64,000 bases of DNA from Cytidiella melzeri (lineage: Eukaryota; Basidiomycota; Agaricomycetes; Polyporales; Irpicaceae): assembly GCA_022592445.1 (NCBI GenBank), contig JABYQR010000092.1, positions 1 through 64,000 of the forward strand, given 5' to 3'. The translations under genes were made by a program, and so were the position numbers. This document shows, one piece after another, positions 37,071-55,247 of this stretch; the stretch's first letter is position 1; every line of letters begins with the position of its first letter. The notes beneath the pieces were generated by a model that saw nothing but the letters and a program-made list of their open reading frames with translations, was not told where the DNA came from and did no database searches.

Positions 37071-37207
37071 GCTCTAACCGCACGAGAATCTCTCCATCAA
37101 GCTCTATACTTGAACCCTATTCAATCTAGGCAACAGTACGTCGGCATTACGCCCGTAGGCCATCATTATCATTATCTCTATCTCTTGATCTTGTGATTAG
37201 ATCTACT

Positions 37208-40200
37208 ATGGTGACAACTACTGCCGCAGCTTCCGAAATGTCGGGCAGCTATTGTATTGAACCGCTGAAGGGAGCCGAGAATTATATTACTTGGCGCGTC
37301 CAGATTACAGACATTCTCATGGACATGGGGCTGTGGGAATACACTTCAGGCAACACCACCAAACCCGCTGATGCAGTCCAAGCTGCTGAGTGGACCAAGA
37401 AGGATTGGAAGGCACTTACAACCATCCGACTCTGCATTTCAAATTCAATGATGGTGCATGTGATTTCCGCCAGTACTTTGAAGGATGCCTTCGACACCCT
37501 TTCCAATGTTTTCAATAATGAAGGTGCCATTGCTCTTATTGTTTTACGTCGCCGTTTTCTTGGTTACCAGATCCCTGAGGAGGGCAACCTTGGTGAAGAA
37601 CTGCGCAAGATCAAAGGACTTTGGCAGGAGATCAATCTTGTACAATCGCCGAAGATCTCTGACAACGAGTTAGCCTCCATCATTCTTACGGCGCTACCAC
37701 ACTCCTGGGACCCTCTGATCTCATCAATCTCACTTGACAACACTCTGACATCAGCCAACATTATTGGTCGTATTCTACAAGAAGACAATCGCCAAAAGGA
37801 ACGCACTACAGCCGAGACTAGTCTATATGCACATACCCAACATCAAAGATCAAAGTTTTGCGCCAGAGTATTCTGCCACGGCTGCGGAAAAGAAGGACAT
37901 ATCAAACCTGAATGTCAGAGTGGTGGAAAGAATAAGGAAGATGGTAAGAAGGAAGGGCAAGCGAAGGAAAGGAAAGGACAAAAACAAAAACAAGAGATCA
38001 TACACTCACATCGCCGAAGGAGAGAAAAACGGCAATAGCAACACCGAGCGCGAGGAATACGCTTTCCCGGCTACAGAGAATGCTTCCGCTGCACCTACCG
38101 GCACTTGGCTTGGCGACTCCGGAACTTCTTCGCACATCATCAATGATAGATCTCTATTCATTACTTTTCCCCATCAAAAGTTCTATCCACGGTGTTGGCG
38201 ACTGCTCAAGCCTTGGACACGGCAATGTGCGAATTGTGTTCATCACAAAGCAAGAAACCATTCCGGTCATACTCAAGGACGCGTTATACGCGCCATCAAT
38301 GAGATTTAATCTCATTTCCTTAGGAAGACTCACTAGCGCAGGCCTCTCATACAAAGGCAAAGGGATGGAACTGTTTATCAAAAATGAAGAGAAGGTGATC
38401 CGACATGGAACCAAATCCGGTAACCTTTACCGAATGGCCGTCAAATCCGTCGACACAATTTCAATGATTGCTCGCTTCAATTGCTCCTGGTATGAATGGC
38501 ATTGTGCCCTTGGACACATCAATAAGGGACAGCTGAAGGAGATGCATGGCAATGGTCTAGTATCAGGTATGAATGTTGATACTACGTCAGATGATGATTT
38601 TGTTTGCGAAGCATGCATCGCTGCGAAACACACTCGCGCATCAATTCCCCTCCAGACTTTATGCAAGATCTCGCAAATTGGGGAGATCATCTTTTCCAAT
38701 ATCTGGGGACCAGCAACTACGAACTCCATTGCGGGTCTTTCCTATATGATCTCATTTACAGACGGAACATCACGTTTAGTCTGGGTTCAATTCATGAAAG
38801 ATCGGGACGAAGCCAAACAGAAACTCAAGGAACTTGACACGTTCATTGAGAACCAATTAGGTTGCCGCATCAAATCCTTGCGTGTCGACAATGCAAAGGA
38901 GTACGTCCAAGGAAAAATGAAATCATACACTGATAGGCATGGCATCAGATTAGAGCCCACAACGTTGTACACTTCTGAATACAATGGTGTATCAGAGCGA
39001 CTTAACCGAACTCTGGTCGAACATGCGCGCGCTATGCTAATTTCGCACCGGCTTCCGAAATATCTATGAGAGGAAGCAATCTCTTACGCCGCTTATGTCA
39101 AGAATAGATCACCAACGCACGCATTACCGCATTCGACTCCATTCGAAGCACTCTGGAAGAAGAAACCAGACGTGAGCAACATACACAAATTTGGTACAGA
39201 ATGTTGGGTACGTGTAAACGTATCTTTGTCAAAGCTCAACACGCGATTCATCAAACGAACCTTTGTCGGAATTAAAGAAGGGGGGACCAAAGGATTTAGG
39301 TACTTGGTACCTGAATCTCGGAAAATTCTTACATTGCGTGAGGTTATTTTTCTGCGCTCTGATGAACTCACGGCGCTGATTGTTTAAACCACTGTCAATC
39401 TTGAGGGGGAGAAATCCACACAGTCACCCACAGTTCCTATTCAAACCAAGAATGAAGTGGCTCCTACCCGCTCTCTTCGTGACAAACCCCGGCTTGACTA
39501 CTTGAAACTCAATGATGGCCCACAGAAGACCCTTTTATCACTGACTGCCAAGCCCAAGTTGAAGGTTACCACTGTACCTGTATCCGAACTGTCGGATCAG
39601 GGGGAGTTGCCATCAGTCTCAGAGATACCGTCCGTCGAAATGGACGCAAATATGTGTTTCATCGTTGACACTTCAGATTTGCCTCAGTCATTTGACGAAG
39701 TTAGGAAGCGCGATGACTGGCCTCTTTGGAAAGAGGCTATGGACAAAGAAATGGCACAATTGGATAGACTAGGCACTTATTCAATGGCAGATCTTCCTGC
39801 CAATCGCAAGGCCGTCGGATGCCAATGGGTATTCACCGTTAAACGCGACGCAAACGGCAACATTCTCAAGTACAAGGCACGCCTTGTTGCGCAGGGTTTT
39901 TCTAGATCCCCGGTCAAGATTTCTTTGCAACTCATGCCCCTGTCATTTGACTTGAGACTTTCCACACCATCATCTCAATTGTTGCTCATCTCGATCTTGA
40001 ACTCCATCAGGTTGACGTCGTTGGGGCATATCTAAACTCCCCACTCCAGGAGGACATCTACATGAAGCAAGCGCCCGGCTATGAAGATAGTTCGCCGCGT
40101 GTATATCGCCTGCACAAGGCGCTCTATGGACTCAAGCAGGCTGGCCGTGCCTGGCGCGCAGAACTCGATCGCGTTTTACTTGAAGCCCTCAGATTCACGC

Positions 40201-47295: not shown

Positions 47296-47300
47296 CTTTA

Positions 47301-47468
47301 TGTCAAAAACGAGGTTCGGGCGAGAGCACGAGATGGAGGTACGAGGGTAGGATTCGATACTGAACACAAATGTTGCACTTGCGATAAGTACTAAGTCACT
47401 CGATCGTTGAGTGCCCCTCTCTATCTCCTGTCCCAATCCGGTACCCCGACCGGGTCACATCCTTGACA
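47301..47468 (-). repeat. 3' LTR of cargo element
   Basis: 168 bp, TGTCAA...TTGACA on either strand; one C/T difference from 54560-54727. Confidence 0.92.
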
Positions 47469-47476
47469 CCCCCCTT
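47469..47476 (-). promoter_or_regulatory. Polypurine tract of cargo element
   Basis: Minus strand AAGGGGGG abutting the 3' LTR, where plus-strand DNA synthesis should start. Confidence 0.7.
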
Positions 47477-47585
47477 GACCCGTGTCGCCATACTTCTTCG
47501 TAATGGCAGGTAGCCTGCGTCCGTTCGATGCTGACGCCATGTCGTGAGTATTGATGCTCGGAAGAGGTAGTCGGCATCGTCAGTC

Positions 47586-47677
47586 TTAGAGCGACGGGAT
47601 TAGAGGAGTCGTCGAAGGGGTCGGTTCGGGAACATCTGGTATGACAGGCAGAGTGAGATATTCTAGTTCAGAGGGCG
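47586..47677 (-). pseudogene. C-terminal piece of the cargo ORF, left of copia 2
   Basis: After removing copia 2 and one TACGT copy, this 92-nt piece continues the cargo ORF without a frame break for 30 more codons (Pro/Thr/Leu-rich, including PSELEYLTLP) to a TAA stop at 47588-47586. It is now cut off from its promoter. Confidence 0.85.
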
Positions 47678-47682
47678 TACGT

Positions 47683-48121
47683 TAATGGCTTTTCAGCTCC
47701 GGCTCACGGACTAGTAATTACCGGACTCTCTTTTGTTTTCTGTATATGGTCGCTCTATTGTTCTTTCTTCACGCGGACACATCTGTATCACAGATTTTCC
47801 TTTTTGGGTCGCCTGAGGGCTCTGTCTTATATACCTTCGCCCCCGCTCCTGACACTCCATTGTGCTCTTTCTCTTTCGCACCTGGAGTGAGTATTCTTCG
47901 TTGTCCCTCACATATGCAATATGCTCACAGCCTGTACCTGTAGTTGACTCGCTTCGCTCGTGTGTCTTAGGTACAGTCATTATGCCATCGTGCTCTTTCT
48001 CTTTCGCACCTGGATTGACTCGCTTCGCTCGTGTGTCTTAGGTCCTTACGACGGCAAGTGGGATTACGACTGCGCATCCATCCCTGCCTCTAGACGTGTT
48101 GAATACATTCGACCGGCTTTA
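47683..48121 (+). repeat. 5' LTR of copia element 2
   Basis: 439 bp, ends fixed by the TACGT duplication. Contains an internal tandem repeat of about 60 bp (GTGCTCTTTCTCTTTCGCACCTGGA near 47866 and 47989, with TTGACTCGCTTCGCTCGTGTGTCTTAGGT at 47943 and 48014). Confidence 0.92.
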
Positions 48122-48136
48122 GGTTATGAGCCCCGC
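48122..48136 (+). promoter_or_regulatory. Primer-binding site of copia 2
   Basis: GGTTATGAGCCCCGC next to the LTR, same half-tRNA-iMet type as element 1. Confidence 0.75.
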
Positions 48137-48251
48137 CTGGCTCTAATCAACACTCGTCGTTCACCTTATTGCGCCCATCTGCGCTTCGCTCCGATCAACG
48201 TCGACACACGACTCCAGGTTTTCATATCCACATCCTTAACGTCCTATCAAC

Positions 48252-51200
48252 ATGTCGAGCACTACACCTCCCACAGGTGGTTCGGCATCGTCTGGCCCTG
48301 CTGGGTCCACTCCTGCCTCTGCAGGCCCCTCTGCCGCTGGTTCGTCGTTTGTCAAGAACACTTCCAGCAACTCCTCGTTCATCAAACTCGACTCGCTGCC
48401 TAAGCTGACTGGTGCCAACAACTGGAAGGAATGGAACATGCTGTTCATCCAGTTCCTCAAGACGCAAGCCGCGTCTGGCATGGTCGATCCTTCTCTGGTC
48501 AAGCCCGCGTCCACCGACACGGACTACGACAACTGGTGCAAGGCCGACGCCAACGTCACTCTGGTTCTCCTCGCGACCGTCGACAGCTCTCTCCATCATC
48601 TCTTCGACCTCGAAACCAACTCCGCCGCCAAGATCTACGCTAAGCTAAAGGCCAACTACTCCGCCTCGACCACTCTCTCTGCATTCCTCAAGTTCAAGCA
48701 GTACTTCCTTCACACGATCGACGGCTTACGCCCTCTCGTTGAACAGCTTGAAGAACGTGGTCGTCTCTGGCAAGAAGTTGACGCCTCCGGCATCCTTGGC
48801 GACAAGGAACTGCTCAAGATCTTCGGTCTCCTCTCGGTACTCCCTGACTCCTTCGCCAACATCGTTGAGCCCATCCTCGCTGTCACCGCGCCAAAGGACT
48901 TGAAATACGACGACATCCGATCGCGCCTCATCGATGAGGCTAAGCGAAAGGAATCGCCTTCAGTCTCTGCGGTCAAGTTCAACAAGTCTTCGGCTTCGTC
49001 CTCGTCGGGCAAGTCAAAGAAGCAGTGCGGGTTCTGCAAGTACAAGGGTTATACAGAGGACGAGTGTCGTAAGAAGAAGGCTGCCATTGAGGAGGCAAGG
49101 AAAGGGGGAAAAGGAGGAAAGGACAAGGGGAAGAAGGAATCTTCTGGGTCACCATCATCGTCTAACGGTTCTGCTGCTGTAAATGTAGTCTCTGCTGAGG
49201 ACTCCGCGTCCGAAGCCGCCAACGTCGCAAATATAGATGTTATGTTTTATGCTTCGGGTGAAACACCCTGGATGCTCGACTCAGGCTGCACGAGACACAT
49301 CACCAACAACCTCAACGACTTCCACGACTACAAGCCATTCGCTACGCCGTCGTTTGCGACATTAGCTGATGCTTCGAAGACTTCAATGTCTACGCTTGGA
49401 TCTGGGAGCGTACGTGGAACCGTACATGTTGATGGAAAGCAGCTCACAGCGCAGTTTGACAACGTCTTATACTGCCCGGGCATCGCCTACCGACTCATTT
49501 CGATTTCCTGTCTTGACTCCAAAGGATTCTCTACCGTTTTCACTGGCGGTAAAGCACGGATACACAAGAATGATACCACCTACGGCATAGGTACTCTCAA
49601 GGGCGGCCAATACTGGTTGGGACTTTGCGTCTCTTCTTCGTCGGTCGCCTCCTCCACGCACACGCACTCGTCACCCATCAACCTTGTACACCAACACCAT
49701 GGTCACCTCAACTGGGAAGCACTACAGAAGCTACGCTCTGACAACTCCCCAGTGACAGGTCTGACTATTGACGAGAAGACTCCTCGCTCTGAACACGCAT
49801 GCGAAGGTTGTCAACTCGGCAAGGCCACACGACGCACATTCCATTCATCCTCGACACCTCGCGCGGACAAACCTTTCGATCTCATCCACACTGACTTGGC
49901 TGGACCTATGCAGAACTCTTCTGTAAACGGCGGACACCTCTACATGCTCACGTACATCGACGACTGCTCTGACAACGTCGGATTTATTTCCTGAAACACA
50001 AAGACGAACAGGAGCAGAAGTTCGAGGAGTTCCGTCAGCTGGTCAAAACTCAGTTCGAGAGGGATATCAAGATTCTTCGCTCTGACAGGGGCGGTGAATA
50101 CCAGTCGAAGCGCTTCGTGCAACGATTGAAGGATCTTGGCATTGTCCATCAGCGCACCACCCCGGATACACCACAACAAAACGGCAAGGCTGAGCGTTTC
50201 AACCGCACCATCATGGAGGCTGCGCTCTCTATGCTTTACGCCGCCGGGATGTCCAAAGGTTTCTGGGAAGAAGCCATGAAAACCGCTGTGCATGTGCGCA
50301 ACCGAGCACCCAAACGGTCTCTGGATTGGAGGACACCATTCGAGATTATCACTGGCTCCAAGCCGGATGTTTCATACTTCTGTGTTTTTGGTTGCCTCGC
50401 CTATCACCACATTCACAAGGATCATCGCAGGAAGCTCGATGCTCACGCTCAGCCTCTTGTGCATGTTGGGTATGAAGCGGGTTCTAAAGGTTACCGCTTA
50501 TGGGACAAACATACTCATAGGATCGTCTCGAGTACTGACGTTGTATTCGACGAACTGATCTTTTCTAACCGTCCTTCACCTCCTACTCAACCAACTTCGA
50601 GCATTCCAACCTCTCCGCCGACCACGTACGATCTTGAAATTTCACTCCCTTTAACGCCCTCTTCGCAGCCGGCTACTACCACGTTGCAAGTGCCCCCAAC
50701 TCAACAACCACCTCCTCCTGACGCAACATCCACGTCGGCTCCTACGCCTTCACGGATACCGCGTCCCTCTACTCCTATTCCTAGTTCGTCCACATCTGCT
50801 GAACCAGAGCCTAACTCTTCATCCACGCCACTCTCGCCTTCCAAACGGAAAGGCCCTCCTGTCGTACCCTCTCCCAAACTCGAGCCAAATCCCAATCGTC
50901 CTCCGGCCGCTTCTCCACATGACTACCTTCCATTCTCCAACCCGGCTCATGCTGGTGTTACACGTCGTTCACAACGCACTGTTGTACCTCGTGATGCGAA
51001 GCGTCTCCAGTCTATGTGGGCTGTTACTGAACAAGAGATTGAGGAGACGACTCGAGCTCGCGGTAACAAGGTCCCCTACAAAGGCAAAGGCAAAGGCAAA
51101 GCGAAAGCTGACGCTGGCGCTGTCCTCTCTGACGAGCAGGTCGTCATGCTGGCAGCAGCAGTCACGCCTCAGGGGGAGCCTCGTACCTACCGGCAGGCTA

Positions 51201-52753
51201 TGGGTTCACCTGATCGAGATGACTGGCGTGCAGCTATGGAGGCTGAAATCAAAGGTCTCCAGGACACTGGAACATGGAAACTAGTCGATTTGCCCCCTGG
51301 TCGCAAGGCAATCAAGAGCAAATGGGTTTACAAACTCAAACTTGACAAGGACGGTAATGTTGATCGTTATAAGGCACGTCTGGTAGCCAAGGGTTTTGAG
51401 CAAGTTCAAGGCATCGATTTCACAGACACCTTCGCTCCCGTCGCCCGTCTGGAGTCTTGGCGATACCTCGTCGCTTTGGCTGCTATTCTGGACTGGGAAA
51501 TCCACCAGATTGACTTCCAACAAGCCTATCTGAACGGATCTTTGGACGAGGAGGTTTACATGGAGCAACCTGAAGGGTTTGTACTGGATGAAGGCAAAGT
51601 ATGCCGCCTTCATAAGGCAATCTATGGCCTAAAGCAAGCAGGACGCCAATGGTTCCTCACGCTCAAGGCATGCCTCGAAGAACTCGGCTTCGTCTGTTAC
51701 GACACAGGTGATGTCGCCATTTTCACTCGTCGACGAGGGGGAGCCCTCCAAATTATTGTTTGCTACGTCAACGATCTCACTATTATGGGGAACAGTCTCA
51801 CCCTCATTAAGGAGACCAAGGACGCTCTTCGTCGCCATTTCGATCTCAAAGACTTAGGCGAGCTCAAGCACTATCTCGGTATCCGTATCACTCGGGATAG
51901 GGGGAGTCGTCTCATCTACCTCGACCAAGAGGTCTACATAAATTCCGTTCTCAAACGCTTCCAGCATGAGGACTCCAATCCTGCTTCCACACCGCTTCCA
52001 ACCGGTATCCAGTTGGTACACAATGAAAATCCCAAGGAGCAGTGAGACCCAGCACTTATCCACACCTACCGCAGTGTACTTGGCTCACTCATGTACGCCT
52101 CCCTTGGAACTCGACCTGACATCTCGTACGCCGTTGCGAAGCTCTGTCAATACCAGTCCAACCCCTCGCAGCTGCATCTCCGCGCTGCATATCATGTCCT
52201 TCGCTACCTTCGCGGTACCTCAAGTCTCCGACTTTGTCTAGGCCATAATGACGAAGGCGTTGACGATCTTGTCGGTTACACCGACGCCGACTTTGCCGGC
52301 GACTTAGACGACTCGCTCTCCACCTCTGGCTGGGTTTATTTCCTTGGCTATGGCGCTGTCTGCTGGTCCTCGCGCAAACAACGTTCTGTGGCGAAGTCTA
52401 CCTTCGACTCAGAATACTTTGCGGCTCACGAAGCTTGCGAGCAACTCAAGTGGTTGAAGATTCTCACTGATCAAATTGAGCAACCTCTTCCTCTACCTGT
52501 CGTCCTTCATTGCGACAACAAGAGTGCTGTAGACGCTTCCAAGTCCACCCACGTGAAGCATTGCTCAAAACATACTCGCGTCACTGCGCACGCTGTTCAC
52601 GAATGCGTCACCAAAGGCCTCGTCGAATTGGTTCGAATCCCTGGAGTTGACAACCCCGCTGACATCTTCACCAAGTCTTTACCGGCTGAAGCTCACGTTC
52701 GTCACTCTGAGTCCTTAGGGCTCGTCCAGTTTCACCTCGCTGAGGGGGAGTAA
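48252..52753 (+). pseudogene. gag-pol of copia element 2, lightly damaged
   Basis: From the ATG at 48252: Gag with UBN2-type domain, zinc knuckle CGFC....Y....C where His is Tyr (49050-49052), protease LDSG, pre-integrase HHGHLN and CEGC, and integrase IHTDLAGP. One base appears missing near 49975-49981, shifting the frame. The other frame then carries RSDRGGEY, KAERFNRT and the RT from 50117 to a TGA at 52043-52045. RNase H follows (52046-52753: YTDADFAG, DSEY, HCDNKSA) to the stop beside the purine tract. The RT box is YVND (51764-51775), with one catalytic Asp replaced. About four lesions in all; three look like C-to-T or G-to-A. Confidence 0.9.
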
Positions 52754-53189
52754 TGGCTTTTCAGCTCCGGCTCACGGACTAGTAATTACCGGACTCTCTT
52801 TTGTTTTTTGTATATGGTCGCTCTATTGTTCTTTCTTCACGCGGACACATCTGTATCACAGATTTTCCTTTTTGGGTCGCCTGAGGGCTCTGTCTTATAT
52901 ACCTTCGCCCCCGCTCCTGACACTCCATCGTGCTCTTTCTCTTTCGCACCTGGAGTGAGTATTCTTCGTTGTCCCTCACATATGCAATATGCTCACAGCC
53001 TGTACCTGTAGTTGACTCGCTTCGCTCGTGTGTCTTAGGTACAGTCATTATGCCATCGTGCTCTTTCTCTTTCGCACCTGGATTGACTCGCTTCGCTCGT
53101 GTGTCTTAGGTCCTTACAACGGCAAGTGGGATTACGACTGCGCATCCATCCCTGCCTCTAGATGTGTTGAATACATTCGACCGGCTTTA
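52751..53189 (+). repeat. 3' LTR of copia element 2
   Basis: 439 bp, preceded by GAGGGGGAG (52742-52750). Its minus strand supplies the last 10 codons and stop (53158) now read by the cut cargo ORF. Confidence 0.92.
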
Positions 53190-54075
53190 TACGTGGGCGT
53201 GAGGGCACATCGTAGTGATCTGCCTCTGTAGGAGCTCGAGAAGGAGAGTCGGTTGTCCCCGTTGAGGATTCAGGCGTGGTTCTTGGAGGCCCCGATACCA
53301 CAGACCACTGGTCAAACTGACCCAGTACAGGTGTGGTAGTTAGACGTAGGTGAGAGTCAGGGCTAATGGCCGTAGTTGTGTGCGAACTTGTTATTCGTCT
53401 CCATAACCTCCTGAACCGTCTGTCTGCCGACATCTGAACGGCGACATCTGCTAGCAGCATCCCAAGCCCAGTCCATAGCATGACGATCATTGTCCTCATG
53501 AGGCTTTGCGTGAACAAGAAGTCGACGAACTGTCTGAGTCCAAAGGCTAGATATGGGTCAATTGAGGAGGGAGACTTGCCCATGAAATGGTTGAGAGAGA
53601 CACCCTCCCAGAGTCCAATCAGTGCGGTGGCTTGGACAGTTTCATGCACGACAGCATTAATAAGGGCGCGAAGCCCGAGGCCTGCGCCAATGGCGACGTG
53701 GTTGTCCATGCCTATGCATACGCTGCCGGATGGTTGTCGTCGTGTCAATGTGAAGGTACCGACGTCGGTGTTGATTTGGGGATGTGAGGATGGTCCAGCA
53801 ACGGGTGCCGAAGTGGGGTACGCACCGAACGGCATCTCATTGGGCGTCGAGCGCGGGTCTGGCTCTGAGACGACGTAGTGACGCTGTCCTGGCGTGTAGG
53901 CGGTGCTATTGCTTTGCTTCTCGTACAACGCCGAGTGACATGTGGTTGTTTGGGTTGTGCTCGATGAGGAGAGGACCGCAAATGGCGAATGGAACGAGCA
54001 ATTTGCAAACTTGGGGACTATAGTGCGGGAGAGCGAGCGGGTGTGCTTTGCGAGTGAGCGAAGCGTGGAGGACAT
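53158..54075 (-). pseudogene. Cargo ORF of the LTR element: putative mitochondrial/membrane protein, truncated by copia 2
   Basis: The intronless frame starts at the ATG at 54075 and reads 295 native codons to the TACGT target site at 53190, then 10 codons of copia LTR to a stop at 53158. Before the insertion it ran on at 47677-47586, for 325 residues. The N-terminus MSSTLRSLAKHTRSLSRTIVPK is Arg/Ser-rich like a mitochondrial presequence. Then come a Ser/Pro-rich linker and two hydrophobic regions (about 135-165, ending near ALIGLWEGVSL; about 190-215, MRTMIVMLWTGLGMLLADVAV). The tail is hydrophilic and Thr/Pro-rich. No Gag, zinc knuckle, protease or RT motif. In a genome where host genes have introns every 100-400 bp, an intronless 1-kb ORF suits capture through an mRNA. 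Origin and function unknown. Confidence 0.8.
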
Positions 54076-54540
54076 TGTTGTCGCTGTTGGTGGCGGTAGT
54101 AATAGGAGGTTGTGGTCAAAAGTAGAAAGTTGAAAGGCACAAGAGCTTTTTCTGTGATGGATGCAGCGGATGCGACGTTGGAGAAAAGTAAAAGTAGAGA
54201 GTGAGAGGCGATTATTGCGGCTGCTGAAGAATAAAGATTGTCTGTCTTGCGAAGTCTTTGCCGTTGTGAGTTCTCGATAGCGCGACATGATAAGATGCTT
54301 GTGATAAGCTTTGTGGCGCAGGAAAATGCAGTAGTGCATTGATGTAGTGTCAACTGGCTGGTGACACAGCCATACGTTGGTATCTGTCGAGGGAATGTTG
54401 AGGCTGTGACAGAAGGATATGAAGAGTGCAGAAATAGGGGTTTGTTCGAACTTGAAGTCGTTTGCGTAATGGTAGAGTTGAGAGATCAAGATCTTGTAGA
54501 TCTTGTATAGCCGTAGGAATGAAAGATTTATCGCGGCAGA

Positions 54541-54559
54541 GAGCGCAGAGCTCATAACC
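54541..54559 (-). promoter_or_regulatory. Primer-binding site of the cargo element
   Basis: Minus strand GGTTATGAGCTCTGCGCTC abuts the 5' LTR. It matches the complement of the fungal initiator tRNA-Met anticodon arm and its 5' side at about 17 of 19 positions (yeast sequence from memory). Confidence 0.7.
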
Positions 54560-54727
54560 TGTCAAAAACGAGGTTCGGGCGAGAGCACGAGATGGAGGTA
54601 CGAGGGTAGGATTCGATACTGAATACAAATGTTGCACTTGCGATAAGTACTAAGTCACTCGATCGTTGAGTGCCCCTCTCTATCTCCTGTCCCAATCCGG
54701 TACCCCGACCGGGTCACATCCTTGACA
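54560..54727 (-). repeat. 5' LTR of cargo element
   Basis: 168 bp; outer edge gives the new stop codon (TGA at 54716-54714) used by SSP2. Confidence 0.92.
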
Positions 54728-55247
54728 CTTTAGGCAGGGAGGAATCCTCAGGCTTTGGGGGGATTGTTTTGGCCGGTTTTATGTAATACTGCCCTTCATT
54801 GTAAAGCCCACTATACACAATCTTCTCATTTTCTGATGCCCCTGGCCCAGGTGGTTTGGCTTCATCAGTGTTAGCCATGATTTCATGAATCTCATTCACG
54901 AGTGCTTGATCTTTTGGACCCCAGCGTGAATGCAGAACAGTAGCTCTTGCATTGTCACGAATACTATGGGCCTCTTGATGCGGTTGATGTTGCACATCAG
55001 CAGCATTCACTGGCAACTGACTGTACAGACTGTATAAAAGAAGAAGATTATCAGAGACACTGTTCATTAACCTTAGAATACAAAGAGTGGCTACTACTCA
55101 CTGCAACTCCTTGTTGATTTCCAAGCCTCCTTTGATTGACTCTGAGTGGGGTTCTCTTCTGCCATATGGGGTGGCAGTCACAGTCACTGTATGGAATGCA
55201 CCAGTGACAACTGTGGCAAACAAAACAAGAGAGGTTGAGATCCTCAT
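54714..55247 (-). CDS. Small secreted protein, family member 2 (SSP2), C-terminus altered by LTR insertion
   Basis: Exon 1 is 55247-55102, a 72-nt intron follows, and exon 2 is 55029-54714, giving 153 residues. The signal peptide MRISTSLVLFATVVTGAF and following TATPYG match SSP1, as do the intron place and phase (after the second base of a codon, GTGAGT/CAG). The native frame ran to 54728, then ended VT-stop (pieces at 47295-47288). Now it reads three codons into the LTR (S-R-M-stop). Only the last two residues change, so the protein may still work, but the 3' UTR and poly(A) signal are replaced by the LTR. The protein is more acidic and shorter than SSP1. Confidence 0.75.

Follow-up and report, generated by a model that had tools for sequence, protein, structure and literature searches.

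The window, that is, the whole 64,000-nucleotide stretch of Cytidiella melzeri DNA analysed here (contig JABYQR010000092.1, positions 1 to 64,000), carries a retroelement with long terminal repeats (LTRs) at 47301-54727. The element lies on the minus strand, so that its right LTR is the 5′ LTR. The 5′ LTR (54560-54727, minus strand, TGTCA...TGACA) and the 3′ LTR (47301-47468, minus strand) are 168 bp long each and differ only at position 65 (C/T), and copies of the target-site duplication CTTTA lie directly outside them (47296-47300 and 54728-54732). The primer site GGTTATGAGCTCTGCGC (54543-54559, minus strand), which we take to be of the copia-like type and to resemble the complement of the 5′ half of tRNA-Met, is located just inside the right LTR, and the polypurine tract GGGTCAAGGGGGG (minus strand) adjoins the left LTR from inside. 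Direct LTRs with TG...CA ends, a target duplication, a primer site and a polypurine tract, which together define an LTR retrotransposon, are thus all present. The LTR pair, the duplication, the primer site, the polypurine tract and an open reading frame (ORF) of 325 codons had been described in a sequence-only reading of the locus, and all of them were confirmed. The element is split by a nested copia element (47683-53189, plus strand, 5507 bp) inserted in the opposite orientation to its host. The copia has terminal repeats of 439 bp (47683-48121 and 52751-53189; 4 mismatches), gag-pol in three separate open pieces, an RVT_2 domain match (Pfam, E=3.2e-75) and a TACGT duplication read from the sequence (47678-47682 and 53190-53194). 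Its insertion is later than the formation of the window element, which by arithmetic was 1915 bp long beforehand, with an interior of 1579 bp. At 37130-39069, open frames resembling by eye copia gag and pre-integrase/integrase suggest a second copia in the window.

The interior was compared with the genome assembly (49.7 Mb in 731 contigs, to which names such as C701, C79 and C116 refer; the window is C724) separately for its right (1370 bp) and left (209 bp) inner parts; all genome searches scored best candidates only. The interior is a mosaic from C701, C79 and C116, on separate contigs, each with a longer reading frame there. The single cargo gene assumed previously was therefore not upheld, since the interior is a chain of pieces from three host genes and the ORF fuses the C79 N-terminus with C116 sequence which is partly C116 5′ leader. 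Read from the 5′ LTR along the minus strand (coordinates of the right inner part after the semicolon), a family leader with 77-79% identity to sister elements (54308-54559; 1-252) is followed by a short 48-bp piece (54263-54310), about 89-90% identical to sequence inside the elements in C157 and C709. Next comes sequence from the 5′ leader of C701 (54105-54267; 293-338 and 339-455, matching at 93% and 96%, with a 55-bp gap relative to the parent), and then a C79 gene piece including the start codon (53803-54104; 425-757, 92%). C116 contributes piece a from its downstream coding part (53758-53802; 744-802, 88% when the match is counted with its overlap) and piece b, comprising the 5′ leader and the coding start (53190-53770; 790-1174 and 1170-1370, 96% and 95%). 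In the left part, piece b continues past the copia insertion (47613-47677, 65/65 identical) and is followed by 60 bp of the C701 coding region (47560-47619, 93%) and by the 3′ end (47469-47559), common to the C101 and C19 elements and, in its last 38 bp, also to that in C146. Adjacent matches overlap at the joins, where both sources are alike.

No Pfam family was found in the C79 and C701 frames or in the C2-derived frame of L018, and the C116 frame yielded only weak coiled-coil matches below the cut-off. Immediately downstream of C116, an ORF that may be a further C116 exon carries an Smr domain (Pfam, E=5.5e-10). C701 may resemble Byr4/Bfa1, as judged by motif, and no solved structure matched it. 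A protein match of 29% identity to the C116-derived part of the ORF (C623:121733-122095, within L062, C623:118000-126000; E=4.3e-4) may represent a paralogue of C116. A leader protein conserved across the family was also considered but found no support: its frames are broken by stops and indels, and none is open in all six copies.

A search of the genome for further copies of the LTR gave 16 matches with the 168-bp query and 18 places, including those 16, with a related 187-bp LTR query, and thus the LTR belongs to a repeat family and is not a chance repeat. The survey of these places left out C90. Three sisters are complete. Those in C101 and C19 (3.1 kb each) have LTR pairs without a difference (0/168) and 5-bp duplications (GTAGC and GAAAA, respectively), and that in C157 (3.4 kb) has 9/187 differences and a CAGGG duplication. 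C345 and C709 retain the 5′ LTR and leader, C146 and C169 the 3′ LTR and 3′ end, and the C63 copy is truncated. Solo LTRs with the same CTTAT flanks occur in C202, C506 and C651 (L020, L021 and L022) within a stretch of about 4.5 kb with 93-98% similarity between its copies, and a larger duplication has thus probably multiplied a single insertion; C545 looks like another solo LTR (GGTTC flanks).

The cargo differs between the sisters. The C19, C101 and C345 elements hold the C79 piece followed by C2 in place of C116, and in 143 aligned columns of the C79 piece, the window copy has four changes relative to the C79 locus in common with all three of these sisters. The join at the C701 end is identical in C19, C101 and the window copy, and the C701 leader is also found in the C709 and C157 elements (54 bp at 94% and 36 bp at 100%). 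The simplest order of capture would start with C701 and proceed through C79 to C116 in one lineage and to C2 in another. The single difference between the window LTRs supports the recent movement proposed earlier and places the captures probably before the last jump.

About 520 bp of the C157 element (L026:4387-4902) occur at 38 other places at 90-97% identity (40 of 445 candidates scored), several of them within about 1.5 kb of RVT_2 matches, and probably represent a solo LTR from a copia family that was inserted there. Both the C345 element and the 3′ end in C169 terminate at a shared sequence of about 990 bp (L019:7322-8311 and L027:5218-6206, 98% identity), which may be one further transposon that entered both. 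Internal repeats that match each other in shifted register are present in L017:2768-3090 and in the corresponding parts of L018, L019, L025 and L026; this tandem-like tract had no match in the window copy.

Several features of the host pieces point to RNA as their source. An intron-containing parent was found in C116, where a 96-bp GT...AG stretch (L059:4602-4697) is exactly missing from the window element (at 53387/53388), with one substitution beside the join. The C19 element carries the C2 gene without two GT...AG stretches (introns A and B), exactly at both joins; the same gapped C2 match region is present in C101 and, partly, in C345 through their likeness to C19, in which the joins were read at base level. 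All four genes are in sense, C116, C79 and C701 with respect to the parent ORFs and C2 with respect to its introns. The proposal of a captured, intronless cellular sequence in sense therefore holds. At the four host-host joins, to which the join test was confined, the exactly shared sequence comprises 6 (C701/C79), 9 (C79/C116), 3 (C116a/C116b) and 7 (C116/C701) nucleotides. Among 200,000 random position pairs, at least 3 nucleotides were shared in 5.3%, 6 in 0.16%, 7 in 0.05% and 9 in 0.002%. A processed retrogene of the long interspersed nuclear element (LINE) type, which would have a poly(A) tail and a target duplication of its own on either side of the gene copy, is a different matter, as the pieces are joined directly to one another and to the family 3′ end, and no poly(A) was found at the joins read.

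The fusion ORF is in sense with the LTRs. Its first part (53190-54075, minus strand; 295 codons and one base) comprises the C79 N-terminus, C116 a and C116 b, and its last part (47586-47677, minus strand) ends with TAA at 47586-47588; the length of 325 codons (295+1+29) was calculated from the piece lengths without joining the pieces. From the C79 start codon at 54075, the frame runs through 91 codons aligned to C79, through C116 a and the region upstream of the inferred C116 start into the C116 coding region, and finally into the C701 piece, out of the frame of C701. A further in-frame ATG lies upstream at 54555, within the primer site, and the start at 54075 is hence not the first ATG but that which came with the C79 piece. 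The ORF had no match over the Pfam cut-off, and among viral contigs three stretches fitted its pattern, none of which was confirmed. Compared with the parents, the C79 part (91 codons) has a synonymous divergence (dS) of 0.075 and a ratio of nonsynonymous to synonymous divergence (dN/dS) of 0.61, and the C116 part (173 codons) has values of 0.08 and 0.43. Nine amino acid changes were observed in the C79 part, with 6-13 in neutral simulations, and 12 in the C116 part, with 12-20 simulated. The changes are within the neutral range and do not demonstrate constraint, although the C116 value is at its lower edge. A stop was gained in 32% (C79 part) and 48% (C116 part) of the simulations, and an open frame is therefore not rare. 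As judged from these comparisons, the fusion ORF bears no clear sign of selection.

Other explanations of this arrangement were weighed against these data. Capture of the entire mRNA of one cellular gene in a single event would account for one open 325-codon frame that is intronless and in sense, but the pieces match three separate contigs, each in its own longer frame, and three separate parents refute such a capture unless a single gene with the same chain is hidden in an assembly gap, which makes it extremely improbable. The pieces might instead have been joined by DNA repair or recombination, with the LTR element merely as a carrier. Short shared sequence at the joins would suit end joining as well, and the 55-bp gap in the C701 leader, which was tested as an intron and rejected for its lack of GT-AG ends, would fit it too. 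DNA joining does not, however, explain why three introns are exactly absent across two element lineages and why four of four genes are in sense, and we consider it very unlikely. That the fusion ORF has been selected as a new gene with expression from the LTR is also hard to believe; it might encode, for instance, a membrane protein directed to mitochondria, although this is guessed from the look of the sequence. The open frame and the dN/dS values below 1 speak for such selection, but part of the divergence presumably arose on the constrained parent branch, so that dN/dS near 0.5 fits a neutral copy, the amino acid changes do not depart from neutrality and the frame is now cut by copia. The window copy probably makes no useful protein.

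We conclude that the window element is very probably a non-autonomous LTR retroelement devoid of gag-pol, the interior of which was built from host mRNAs captured serially by template switching in reverse transcription. The LTR anatomy, the three parent loci, the exact intron loss, the short shared sequence at the joins and the different cargo of the sisters are directly observed, whereas we infer that template switching was the mechanism, that copia proteins were supplied in trans and in which order the pieces were captured. Element RNA and host mRNAs would enter particles formed from the gag-pol of another element, most likely copia, in which reverse transcriptase would switch templates at short shared sequences, follow a host mRNA and switch back. 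A spliced sense piece of the host gene would thereby be inserted in the element, and the product would integrate with a 5-bp duplication. The cycle could recur, and with its repetition pieces would accumulate and replace one another.

The absence of gag-pol, as proposed in the sequence-only reading, was supported by the lack of any domain or tblastn match in the family sequences tried. With the copia in the window used as query, in its three open pieces, tblastn detected no copia protein in the three complete sisters; no Pfam domain was found in 10 chosen sense frames of these sisters (L017, L018 and L026), and the right inner frame of the window element had no copia domain over the cut-off. 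No gag remnant was detected in the chosen frames, one copia family having been tried. Outside LTR units, the window copia pieces matched L020:8770-9996 (37-38%), which is 3.6 kb from a solo LTR with its own CTTAT flanks, and L060:401-1003 (28%). Matches of the leader and of the 3′-end motif were all within the family (6/6 each), and no gag-pol copy with the same LTR that holds the ORF as a structural gene was found by tblastn, Pfam or the leader search. Supply of the enzymes in trans is plausible. The genome contains 150 RVT_2 matches over the cut-off (150/150 scored, of 764 candidates), and the primer motif occurs at 48 places with at most three mismatches, 6 in the family and 42 outside. Five of these 42 have a listed RVT_2 match on the same strand 2.7-4.8 kb downstream.

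Several observations weigh against this interpretation. At two of the 42 outside primer sites (C523 and C690), the listed RVT_2 match, 2.0-2.6 kb away, is on the opposite strand, and 35 have none of the 150 listed RVT_2 places within 8 kb downstream. The genome searches revealed no autonomous partner with the family LTR or leader that would be the source of the enzymes; a diverged partner could be missed when only best candidates are scored. A gene for the primer tRNA was not found either: a pattern with a T-loop had no match in the genome, and no tRNA was present at the two examined of seven motif places, one of which is the window itself. The C116a/C116b join shares just three exact nucleotides, and the 55-bp C701 gap, being no GT-AG intron, is treated as a deletion or variant. 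A common capture of C79 is called into question by four of the 143 columns in which only the window copy is changed and by four in which only the three sisters are; the changes common to all four copies may also have arisen in the parent. Copia proteins probably move the family, and the primer-site and RVT_2 data fit such a supply without proving it.

Maize Bs1 is an LTR element with a 5-bp duplication and with spliced pieces of several host genes in a chimeric ORF. The likeness to Bs1 proposed earlier is supported, as the LTRs here likewise enclose spliced fragments from more than a single host gene. To call the window element a distinct class was, however, too strong, since it works like Bs1, though its cargo differs between sisters. 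It differs from Bs1 in its fungal host, in having no detected gag remnant, in its length of 1.9 kb before the copia insertion and in its sisters with different gene sets. In LTR-mediated retroposition by template switching, known from animals and plants, the retrogene is usually flanked by portions of an autonomous element. That process resembles our family in its intron loss, in the short sequences shared at the joins and in placing a gene piece within LTRs; our family in contrast exhibits successive captures and no detected gag-pol. TRIM and SMART are small non-autonomous LTR elements, and in TRIM the interior is very short and contains neither coding nor host sequence. They resemble the window element in their short LTRs, primer site, polypurine tract and undetected gag-pol, whereas its interior is longer (1579 bp) and made of host gene pieces, which sets it apart from TRIM. 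Among the Ty1/copia elements of the same genome, the nested window copia also has a 5-bp duplication and a GGTTATGAGC... primer site; unlike these elements, the family has no detected copia protein domain or copia-type gag-pol of its own. In comparison with these systems, the fungal host, the lack of a detected retroviral coding remnant and the switching of cargo within one young family are apparently new.

It is quite possible, although we put this forward tentatively, that the family lacks any protein gene of its own and evolves as inserts from host mRNAs replace one another in serial, nested fashion. The leader and the 3′ end would then be constant and the cargo between them exchangeable filler; every round could yield new fusion ORFs under the LTR promoter, and the family would act as a permanent exon-shuffling machine. 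LTR elements that capture genes have mostly been described as isolated instances. Here, one small family in one genome combines different cargo sets, longer intron-bearing parents, two LTR pairs free of differences and mapped joins, so that the order and rules of capture are directly readable and current activity is testable. The element can thus be used for studying how such elements shuffle genes.

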